In this document: piece by piece, positions 6,314-56,451 of the stretch
Numbering within the stretch: position 1 is the stretch's first letter
How the letters are laid out: each line of letters opens with the position of its first letter
Source: Nitrospira sp.
GTDB lineage: Bacteria > Nitrospirota > Nitrospiria > Nitrospirales > Nitrospiraceae
Length of the DNA: 64,000 nt
Assembly (NCBI GenBank): GCA_035968315.1
Contig: JAVYIN010000005.1
Span: 62,001 to 126,000 of the forward strand
Direction of reading: 5' to 3'
The notes under the pieces: model-generated
Told to the model about the DNA's origin: nothing
What the model saw: only the letters and a program-made list of their open reading frames with translations
Databases searched by the model: none
Position numbers and translations under genes: made by a program

Positions 6314-7018
6314 ATGACAACCGGAACATTGCTCTACGAAGGCAAGGCCAAGAAGATTTTTACCGCCGAACGGGCGGACGAGGTGGTGCAGTATTTCAAG
6401 GACGATGCGACGGCCTTCAATGCGCAGAAGCGCGGCACCATCGTCGAGAAGGGGATCATCAACAATAAGATCTCCGAACGGCTCTTCCTCCTGCTCGAAG
6501 ACGAAGGCATCCGGACGCATTTTGTGAAGCGTTTGAGCGACCGGGAAATGCTCACGAAGAAAGTCACCATCGTGCCGGTCGAGGTGGTGGTGCGGAACAT
6601 TGTCGCCGGCAGCCTGGCGAAGCGGTTGGGGCTCAAAGAGGGCGATGCCATCGAGCCGGCCATTGTGGAGTTCTATTACAAGAATGACGCGCTCGGCGAT
6701 CCGCTCGTGAATGACGACCATCTGCGTGTGATGAATATCGCCACGCCGGCGCTGCTCAAGGATCTCCGGGAGCTGGGGCACAAGGTGAATGCCGTCTTGA
6801 AGCCGTTCTTTGCCGACCGGCAGATGCAGTTGGTGGATTTCAAGTTAGAGTTCGGCGTTTTCCATAACAAGCTGGTATTGGCCGACGAAATTTCCCCGGA
6901 CACCTGCCGACTTTGGGATGTGTCTACCGGCGAGTCGATGGACAAGGACCGGTTCCGCAAAGATATGGGCAAAATCGAAGAAGCGTATCAGGAAGTGTTG
7001 AAGAGGGTATGCGGGTGA
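6314..7018 (+). CDS. purC: SAICAR synthase
   Basis: ATP-dependent ligation of aspartate to CAIR. Family motifs are LYEGKAKKIF at the start, TIVPVEVVVRNIVAGSLAKR in the middle, VDFKLEFG and LADEISPDTCRLWD. The length of 234 aa is standard. GGGAGAGA lies just before the ATG. The stop codon lies inside the left arm of the palindromic element at 7014-7134. Confidence 0.97.
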   Translation: MTTGTLLYEGKAKKIFTAERADEVVQYFKDDATAFNAQKRGTIVEKGIINNKISERLFLLLEDEGIRTHFVKRLSDREMLTKKVTIVPVEVVVRNIVAGSLAKRLGLKEGDAIEPAIVEFYYKNDALGDPLVNDDHLRVMNIATPALLKDLRELGHKVNAVLKPFFADRQMQLVDFKLEFGVFHNKLVLADEISPDTCRLWDVSTGESMDKDRFRKDMGKIEEAYQEVLKRVCG

Positions 7019-7134
7019 GACGGGGTTGCTGCGCTTCTTGCTCGCGCCCCGCGCATCCGGGATTCAATTGGAAATGAGATTGCGGGCGATGCTCGGTGCA
7101 TGCGCGCAGGAAAGCGCAGCAACCCCGTCTCACC
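7014..7134 (+). repeat. Palindromic element A with 23-bp perfect arms
   Basis: The arms 7014-7036 and 7112-7134 are exact reverse complements. They enclose a 75-base core containing GCTCGC, CCCGCGCA, GGATTCAATTG and GCTCGGTGCATGCGCGCA. The left arm starts within the last codons and stop of purC. The core is related to that of element B at 7399-7514, while the arms differ. It could act as a structured RNA, an attenuator or processing site, or a mobile palindrome. Confidence 0.8.
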
Positions 7135-7171
7135 TGCGAAGGGTAAGGGGAGAGAAAAGGGGAAAAGAGCT

Positions 7172-7390
7172 GTGAGACGCTTCGTGATGTTTGTGCGCGA
7201 TAACGGCCCCATTATATCCTTGGGGATCGGGACGACGTGCGTGGCGGCCTTTGCGGTGCTGACGGAGTCTCTGCTGCATAAGGTGGGCTTCATTGCCTTG
7301 ACCCTGTTGGGCGTGGGGCTGATCGCGGGCATTACCTGGGCTCGGAAGCACATGACGGAATTGTCGAAGCCGCCGGATACGGGAGCATAG
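7172..7390 (+). CDS. 72-aa membrane protein between purC and purS
   Basis: I do not recognise this protein. From the GTG at 7172 it reads a short basic N-terminus and two hydrophobic segments (about residues 13-30 and 38-53), then a basic-to-polar tail ending KPPDTGA. AGGGGAAAAGAG lies just upstream of the GTG; the frame can be extended to 7100, but that part lies within the palindromic element and has no ribosome-binding site. It is bracketed by two related palindromes inside the purine operon. Confidence 0.55.
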   Translation: MRRFVMFVRDNGPIISLGIGTTCVAAFAVLTESLLHKVGFIALTLLGVGLIAGITWARKHMTELSKPPDTGA

Positions 7391-7398
7391 GGGAGAGT

Positions 7399-7514
7399 GG
7401 AGCGGTGACGGGTACTGCCTGTGCTCGCTGCCCGCGCACGCAGGATCAATTGTAAGGGGACTCATGGAAGGTGCTCGGTCAATGCGCGCAATAGGCAGCA
7501 CCCGCCACCGCTCC
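7399..7514 (+). repeat. Palindromic element B, paired with element A
   Basis: The arms 7399-7420 and 7493-7514 match in 20 of 22 positions as an inverted repeat. The core again contains GCTCGC, CCCGCGCA, GGATCAATTG and GTGCTCGGT followed by ATGCGCGCA, as in element A. The arm sequence is different from A but self-complementary. It lies between the 72-aa membrane gene and purS. Confidence 0.8.
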
Positions 7515-7549
7515 TTTGGGAAAGAGGACGAGAAGAAGAGGGGAACGGT

Positions 7550-7792
7550 ATGAAAGCGAAGATTCATGTGACGTTGAAGCAGGGCATTTTGGATCCGCAG
7601 GGGAAGGCCATTGAGCATGCGCTGGATTCGCTGGGGTTCAAGAATACGGCGAATGTGCGGGTGGGCAAGTATATGGAAGTGGAGTTGAAGGAAACGGACA
7701 AGGCCAAGGCCGACGCGCAAGTGAAGCAAATGTGCGAGAAGCTGTTGGCAAACACGATTGTTGAAGAATATCGGTATGAACTCACGGCGTAA
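7550..7792 (+). CDS. purS: FGAM synthase subunit PurS
   Basis: Small subunit of the three-part FGAM synthase (PurS, PurQ, PurL), which bridges PurQ and PurL. It is 80 aa, the usual length, with [24 protein letters not shown] near the start and [11 protein letters not shown] following. The frame opens at 7421, but the ATG at 7550 has GGGGAACGG upstream and gives the family N-terminus. It is followed by purQ and purL. Confidence 0.95.
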
Positions 7793-7818
7793 AAGGTGAG
7801 ACGAAAAGGCCGCGGACT

Positions 7819-8517
7819 ATGAATGTTGGAGTGCTCGTTTTCCCAGGCAGTAATTGCGATCACGATTGCCAGCACGTGTTTCAGCATGTGTTGGGGCAAT
7901 CGGTGCAAATGATTTGGCACAAGGAGACCTCGCTCAAGGGGATCGATCTTGTGATCCTCCCCGGCGGGTTTTCCTATGGCGACTATCTTCGTACCGGCGC
8001 GATCGCGAGATTTTCGCCGGTCATGGGAGCGGTGAAGGCGTTTGCCAAGGACGGCGGCGCCGTCATCGGCATCTGCAACGGGTTTCAGATCCTCCTCGAA
8101 GCGGGGCTGCTTCCCGGCGCGATGCTGCGGAATAAGTCGCTCCATTTTATCTGCAAGGATGTGTATGTGAGGGTCGAGAATGCCGCCACGGCCTTTACGG
8201 AGGCCTGTCAGCCTGGCCAGGTCTTGAAGATTCCCGTCGCCCATGCCGACGGCAATTACTACACCGACCCGGTCACGCTGGCGGCTATGCAGGCGAACGC
8301 GCAAATCGTGTTCCGGTATTGCACGCCGGATGGCAAGGTCACGCCGGAGGCGAATCCGAACGGCTCGCTCGACAACATCGCCGGGATCATCAATCCGGAG
8401 GGCAATGTGCTGGGGATGATGCCGCATCCGGAGCGGTGCGCGGAAGATATTTTGGGGAATCAGGACGGGAAGCTGATCTTCCAATCATTGCTCAAGGCGA
8501 TGAAGGTCAAAGCCTAA
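7819..8517 (+). CDS. purQ: FGAM synthase glutaminase subunit PurQ
   Basis: Class I glutamine amidotransferase that feeds ammonia to PurL. The nucleophile is C86 in [14 protein letters not shown], and the His-Glu pair is in [14 protein letters not shown] near residue 200. The N-terminal FPGSNCDHD and [10 protein letters not shown] are PurQ hallmarks. Length 232 aa. Confidence 0.97.
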
Positions 8518-8547
8518 GCCTGTAATTGCCAATAGAGGAATCTCTCG

Positions 8548-10788
<2,241 letters not shown>

Positions 10789-55804: not shown

Positions 55805-56451
55805 TCTTTCTGCGCCGGCAGCTGCCGCTGTTGATCACGATGATCACCGGGCTGGTGTTCGCGGGGCAATATTATGTCCCGCACCCGGCCTCGGAGCAGG
55901 TGCTTACCTCGGCAACCAAGTGGATGCAGATCATCGGCGGGTTCGCGCTGGTGCTGGGCGTGACCAGCCTGTTTCATGTCCATGCCGCCAAGATCCGCCG
56001 GAAAGAAGCGGGGTGGGGCTACAGTGTCGTCCTCTACGGGGGCATGCTTGGCACGATTGCGGTGGGCCTCTGGGCCAACGGGAAAGAAAGTGTCGAGGGG
56101 GTCTCGACGGCGTTCGGCTGGGTCTACAACTTCATGATGGTGCCGCTGCAGGGGACCATGTTTGCCATTCTCGCCTTCTTTATCGCGTCAGCTGCGTACC
56201 GGTCGTTCCGCGCCAGGAGCCGGGAGGCGGCGGTGCTGCTCATCGCTGCGGTGATTGTGATGATGGGCCGGGTGCCGCTCGGCGAGTATCTGATCCCCAT
56301 GAGCGGCGACCTGTCGCAATGGATTCTGAATGTGCTGAACGCCTCGGTGCGGCGCGCGATCCTGATCGGCGTCAGCCTCGGCACCGTGGCCCTGTCGCTG
56401 AAAATCATCTTCGGCGTCGAACGGTCGTATCTGGGGGGAGGCAAGGAATAG
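55801..56451 (+). CDS. Multispanning membrane protein of the cluster
   Basis: A 216-aa protein with about six hydrophobic segments (roughly 8-26, 38-58, 70-88, 104-130, 140-160 and 180-200). It is not recognised as a known transporter. Its start overlaps the DUF6754 stop by four bases, so the two are co-translated and probably form a complex. Confidence 0.75.
   Translation: MIFLRRQLPLLITMITGLVFAGQYYVPHPASEQVLTSATKWMQIIGGFALVLGVTSLFHVHAAKIRRKEAGWGYSVVLYGGMLGTIAVGLWANGKESVEGVSTAFGWVYNFMMVPLQGTMFAILAFFIASAAYRSFRARSREAAVLLIAAVIVMMGRVPLGEYLIPMSGDLSQWILNVLNASVRRAILIGVSLGTVALSLKIIFGVERSYLGGGKE

Follow-up and report, generated by a model that had tools for sequence, protein, structure and literature searches.

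A dispersed repeat family of Nitrospira with covarying arms, whose pairing is preserved on the strand opposite the adjacent gene

The REP/BIME repeats with their RAYT transposases are short dispersed extragenic palindromes, often located directly behind stop codons, and in known cases their folded form is recognised by a Y1 transposase. REPs of the GTAG and CGTC superfamilies are described as palindromes of 20-40 bp whose foot bears a conserved tetranucleotide, GTAG or CGTC (PMC3733652). The attC sites of integrons have an ORF upstream, two inverted boxes, unpaired extra bases and a variable apical part. Their canonical R and L boxes read RYYYAAC ... GTTRRRY. The folded and active strand of attC is the bottom strand, opposite the gene (PMC2117344, PMC3053210). 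MITEs and ERIC-like intergenic repeats are small, non-coding, palindromic and dispersed.

The repeats described here form a dispersed family of the genus Nitrospira with a length of about 95-130 bp; they too are palindromic and lie outside genes, often directly behind stop codons. They differ from REP/BIME in their length, in having a conserved core inside unconserved, covarying arms, in lacking a GTAG-type foot (the feet of the arms are little conserved) and in their one fixed orientation, and a gene for a matching Y1 protein is not present in all Nitrospira carriers. As in attC, an ORF lies upstream, two inverted boxes, unpaired extra bases and a variable apical part are present, and the bottom strand appears to be the folded one, judging from mismatch asymmetry and calculated energies; however, the core boxes (TGCTCGC/GCGCGCA and CCGCGCAC/GTGCTCGG) are not canonical R and L boxes, 22-bp arms lie outside them, and the copies are dispersed singly in core operons of a genome without an integron integrase. 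In contrast to MITEs and ERIC-like repeats, the Nitrospira repeats have no conserved terminal inverted repeats, their ends vary and no target duplication was seen. No description of such repeats in Nitrospira was found in the literature accessible without subscription, and the family is apparently so far undescribed.

The two palindromes beside purC

The window, the whole stretch of 64,000 nucleotides that was analysed, includes a purine operon with the gene order purC-orf-purS, where the orf (7172 to 7390, + strand, GTG start, stop codon 7388 to 7390) is predicted to code for a 72-amino-acid membrane protein of the two-TM type. It has one palindrome on either side, hereafter called elements 1 and 2, both given here on the + strand. 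The arms of element 1 (7011 to 7036 and 7112 to 7137) form an inverted repeat of 26 nt with 96 % complementarity, and the left arm overlaps the last codons of purC and its stop codon (7016 to 7018). When aligned to the family consensus, the left core TGCTCGC-GCC-CCGCGCAT (7039 to 7056) carries the 5' sides of boxes 1 and 2, and after a long loop of type A (7057 to 7088), one of three loop types, the right core ATGCTCGGTGCATGCGCGCA (7089 to 7108) carries the 3' sides of boxes 2 and 1, including an AT bulge. The left arm of element 2 begins 8 nt past the stop codon of the orf, and its arms (7399 to 7420 and 7493 to 7514) are 22 nt long and 91 % complementary, the two mismatches both being A.C on the + strand. 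Its left core TGCTCGC-TGC-CCGCGCAC (7422 to 7439), long loop of type A (7440 to 7470) and right core GTGCTCGGTCAATGCGCGCA (7471 to 7490) follow the same plan, with TG paired to CA at 7480 to 7481 where element 1 has GC/GC. Compared with shuffled sequence, element 1 folded with a z-score of -9.15 on either strand, and element 2 with one of -3.62 on the + strand and -7.27 on the - strand. No intrinsic terminator (a GC-rich hairpin followed by a T run) was found in 6950 to 7620, including the regions 3' of both copies.

The sequence-only reading of this locus had described two related palindromes with common core blocks and unlike arms, and this description holds, with arms slightly longer than first given. 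It had further offered, as one of two possibilities, that they and the 72-amino-acid gene make up a composite mobile unit, which is not supported, as a similar small membrane ORF is found at the same place in two genomes in which both gaps are empty (G009 and G020). The ORF of these palindrome-free genomes is a weak homologue of that in the window (28 % identity over 60 residues), and the gene is thus context, not cargo. Among the genomes compared at the purC locus, element 2 is present only in the source genome, G014 and G022.

Elements 1 and 2 are the only strong family members in the window. The covariance model described below gave a third match at 9372 to 9454 (- strand, E = 1.2e-4 for the window), within purL but on the strand opposite to it, which probably arose by chance.

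Family structure and range

The pattern TGCTCGGTNNATGCGCGCA, with up to 2 mismatches allowed, occurred at 17 places in the source genome, 15 of which showed the full structure; the reversed pattern occurred at 0. A covariance model built from these 15 copies found 26 copies at E < 1e-5, plus one chance-level match. A search of this kind had been suggested along with the first description of the two palindromes, and its result goes well past a local pair. Among 39 relatives searched with the model, 24 gave a match at E 0.1 or better; within the genus, 21 of 23 genomes (the source genome included) were carriers, only G008 and G009 being without a match, while the genomes of family f2 had a few weak matches. 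A typical Nitrospira genome has about 20 repeats. In a stringent pattern scan of 84,980 bacterial and archaeal species, the listed matches all belonged by name to Nitrospira, Nitrospirae or Nitrospiraceae except for a single record named 'Nitrosospira', which may be a naming slip. The exact pattern had no match in the virus collection.

From the outside inwards, a copy consists of arms of about 22 bp, 2 to 3 unpaired bases, box 1 (TGCTCGC/GCGCGCA), the 2-nt AT bulge, a covarying middle, box 2 (CCGCGCAC/GTGCTCGG) and the loop. Boxes 1 and 2 are one mismatched motif, GCTCG/CGCGC, inverted relative to each other. The mismatch itself is conserved: of 111 non-redundant copies, all 111 had the T.C of box 1 and 110 had the C.T of box 2. 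The loop is either long (type A), of 9 nt (type B) or of the form GGCCTC-GAA-GGCC (type C), and when counted by eye in the source genome the types numbered 12, 9 and 5, respectively.

Arm sequence differs from copy to copy, the termini being the least conserved part of the repeat, and the arms end sharply (of 99 copies, 81 were paired at position 21, 67 at position 22, 39 at position 23 and 18 at position 25). They are nevertheless kept complementary over about 22 bp through double changes. In the 15 starting copies, 75 cells were changed on both sides, compared with 26 in shuffles, and in 110 distinct copies from relatives there were 668 double-changed cells, compared with 218 after shuffling and at most 116 in all slid versions, in an alignment that had been fitted to the covariance model. 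A register test without such fitting, on 111 copies with arm identity below 70 %, gave a Watson-Crick fraction of 0.605 in register +1 and 0.357 ± 0.010 when the right arms were permuted. The earlier suggestion that the differing arms covary so as to keep a folded structure is borne out by these counts. Copying of the arms from the end of the target gene was ruled out, because one subfamily keeps the same arms at unrelated places.

Strand asymmetry and position behind stop codons

On the gene-sense strand the arms of all copies contained 282 A.C mismatches, compared with 71 G.T. The asymmetry was present in the first 99 copies (137 A.C, 44 G.T) and was found again in 105 held-out copies from other genomes (145 A.C, 27 G.T), whereas 102 other hairpins located behind genes in the same DNA had 88 A.C and 89 G.T (Fisher P about 4e-12 for the difference between family and control). 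Remaining kinds of mismatch numbered 128-130 in the family and 246 in the controls. Mere breaking of the mRNA helix would raise all non-wobble mismatches equally; since the others were few, and rarer relative to A.C than in the controls, it is A.C that is specifically tolerated. An A.C on the sense strand reads as a G.T wobble on the opposite strand, which is therefore the strand that is kept paired. Pairing is thus preserved on the strand opposite the mRNA of the adjacent gene. Calculated stability also favoured this strand, in 188 of 204 copies when DNA parameters were used and in 147 of 204 under RNA parameters, although the sense strand nonetheless folds strongly. Folding of the opposite strand in the cell is suggested by this pattern. 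Used with control hairpins, the comparison of A.C with G.T can indicate from sequence which strand of a palindromic repeat stays foldable. The A.C mismatches peak at arm positions 6-8 and 16-18, two wobble/mismatch peaks about one helical turn apart.

Of 180 copies, 111 had the end of a sense gene no more than 15 nt from their left arm, and 1 showed the mirror case, the end of an antisense gene at such a distance from the right arm, with gene ends as called from codon usage alone. The distance from the right arm to the next start codon is typically only 20-50 nt. Host sites in the source genome, named from their sequences, include atpD/atpC, sucC/sucD, folD/metF, yajQ and purC/orf/purS. The repeats occupy about 20 gaps per genome in core operons, those of ATP synthase, succinyl-CoA synthetase, folate and purine genes, in a genus responsible for a large share of the world's nitrite oxidation and for complete nitrification.

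Turnover, possible mobility and competing readings

The purC gap differs between genomes. It is empty in G009 and G020, holds a family member in several others and in seven, G021 among them, a large palindrome (about 230 bp) that is unrelated to the family. Its content is unlike in G018 and G012, two genomes in which purC is nevertheless 95.6 % identical over its last 480 bases. The source genome and G014 have the atpD/atpC copy in common, whereas their folD/metF, SDR-gene and purC gaps contain different family members. Recombination between species in this region may be an ordinary account of such gap swaps. In other lineages, copies of type B from unlinked records and different MAGs are up to 97 % alike, arms included, with unrelated flanks, and some are nested within type C loops. 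These closely similar and nested copies show past dispersal, not an active enzyme. No target-site duplication was seen in the gap comparisons, none of which was a clean empty/filled pair of near-identical strains.

Inverted mismatched boxes, a bulge, one foldable strand, a variable loop and dispersal together resemble sites of folded single-stranded DNA that are read by a protein. On the favoured reading, which we hold at about even odds, the repeat is a dispersed and probably non-autonomous element whose folded single strand is recognised by a putative protein; the enzyme and the biological role are inferred. This protein, probably a symmetric dimer, would use the two inverted boxes to bind the gene's template strand when that strand is single and folded. 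The elements would be spreading, or would have spread until recently, as non-autonomous units that are processed as single strands, much like integron attC sites or REP hairpins. Position and orientation would then be set by where insertion occurs or is tolerated, the observed orientation being the one that places the less stable strand in the mRNA, beside the stop codon. It counts against this reading that, where transcription runs in the direction of replication, the strand opposite the gene does not serve as lagging-strand template, which leaves its becoming single-stranded unexplained. The larger proposal, of a novel single-stranded DNA mobility system of Nitrospira with a template-strand hairpin, two inverted mismatched boxes, placement at stop codons in operons and mutual replacement at gaps, is tentative and less likely than not. 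Taken at face value, the strand bias would imply a Nitrospira protein, still to be found, that binds folded DNA, and a putative route that brings repeats to rest precisely behind stop codons.

A competing reading is that the hairpin acts in the mRNA, where it would stall ribosomes at the stop codon, protect or process the message and set the ratio of neighbouring cistrons. In its favour are the anchoring at stop codons in one orientation (111 to 1), the location of copies between cistrons of core operons and the strong folding retained by the sense strand. There is a precedent in the REPs of E. coli, which act at the mRNA level when within 15 nt of a stop codon (PMC12306157). Control of this kind is nevertheless rather unlikely, as the prevailing mismatch would break the mRNA helix while the opposite strand stays paired, and species differ at orthologous gaps, some having no element there and others unlike ones; the earlier idea of paired RNA control elements is likewise doubtful, the relaxed (wobble) pairing belonging to the strand opposite the mRNA. 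The two views could be combined, in that a selfish element folding on one strand could be tolerated where its weaker hairpin enters the message.

A site read in duplex or cruciform DNA within transcribed operons, for example a BIME-like site for gyrase or a nucleoid protein, would be consistent with the core-operon location and with conserved boxes readable as inverted half-sites. It is improbable, since both strands fold in a cruciform, leaving the strand bias in wobbles unaccounted for, and since the arm sequence is free to vary, unlike in duplex binding sites. Slightly less probable still is a structured antisense RNA from the strand opposite the genes: the wobble bias and the mismatches of G.A type fit an RNA of that strand, but the short distance to the next start codon leaves little room for a promoter and a simple consensus scan saw no promoter-like site on either strand of 6950 to 7620. 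No Rfam family matched the window above the gathering score either, the best sub-threshold match at a looser threshold (E 0.059) being an unrelated microRNA. Nothing was found in favour of chance or local duplication of one palindrome, and this explanation has a negligible probability in view of the genus-wide family and the replication in held-out copies; the outcome of two local duplicates only, named beforehand as the one that would speak against a conserved structure, did not occur.

As for a partner of the putative single-strand element, searches for integrases, Y1 transposases and reverse transcriptases and clustering of neighbouring genes found no mobilising enzyme, which is a point against the favoured reading. 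When genes near the copies were clustered in search of a common transposase, just core-operon genes recurred. An integron integrase above the cut-off was found in only three of the searched genomes, not including the source genome (G018:C2:248337, G002:C266:2268 and G030:C39:839, one with an internal stop), and these have no relation to the copy number of the element. The source genome has no reverse transcriptase and one match to a Y1 transposase-like protein; G005, G014, G015 and G017 have no Y1 match, yet G005 and G017 carry about 20 copies each. None of the three enzymes tracks the element across genomes.

Nesting of type B within the loop of type C was observed at L264, L278 and L237, and at L237 the right arm agrees with the outer copy, as though both copies had recombined at the right box. 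At another locus of the source genome (L191, G000:C7:450000-466000), three type B copies in the same orientation, spaced by about 1.0 and 0.85 kb (7555 to 9520), enclose two small gene pairs that by eye are toxin-antitoxin-like, an arrangement resembling a cassette array. The large palindrome found next to purC in seven genomes (L076, L077, L083, L084, L086, L087 and L088) has its own core (CTCGACCGCAC ... GTGCGG) and the same position at the stop codon. Its pattern occurred once per genome in four genomes of the genus (G001, G006, G010 and G012), and at that stringency it is not a dispersed family. Other hairpins at gene ends, with short internal repeats (GTGAAACGTGA-like and CTGGTCTATTTGG-like), and long palindromes of GGATGCTGAAAA type were seen at window position 56451 and at L193, L194, L214 and L217.
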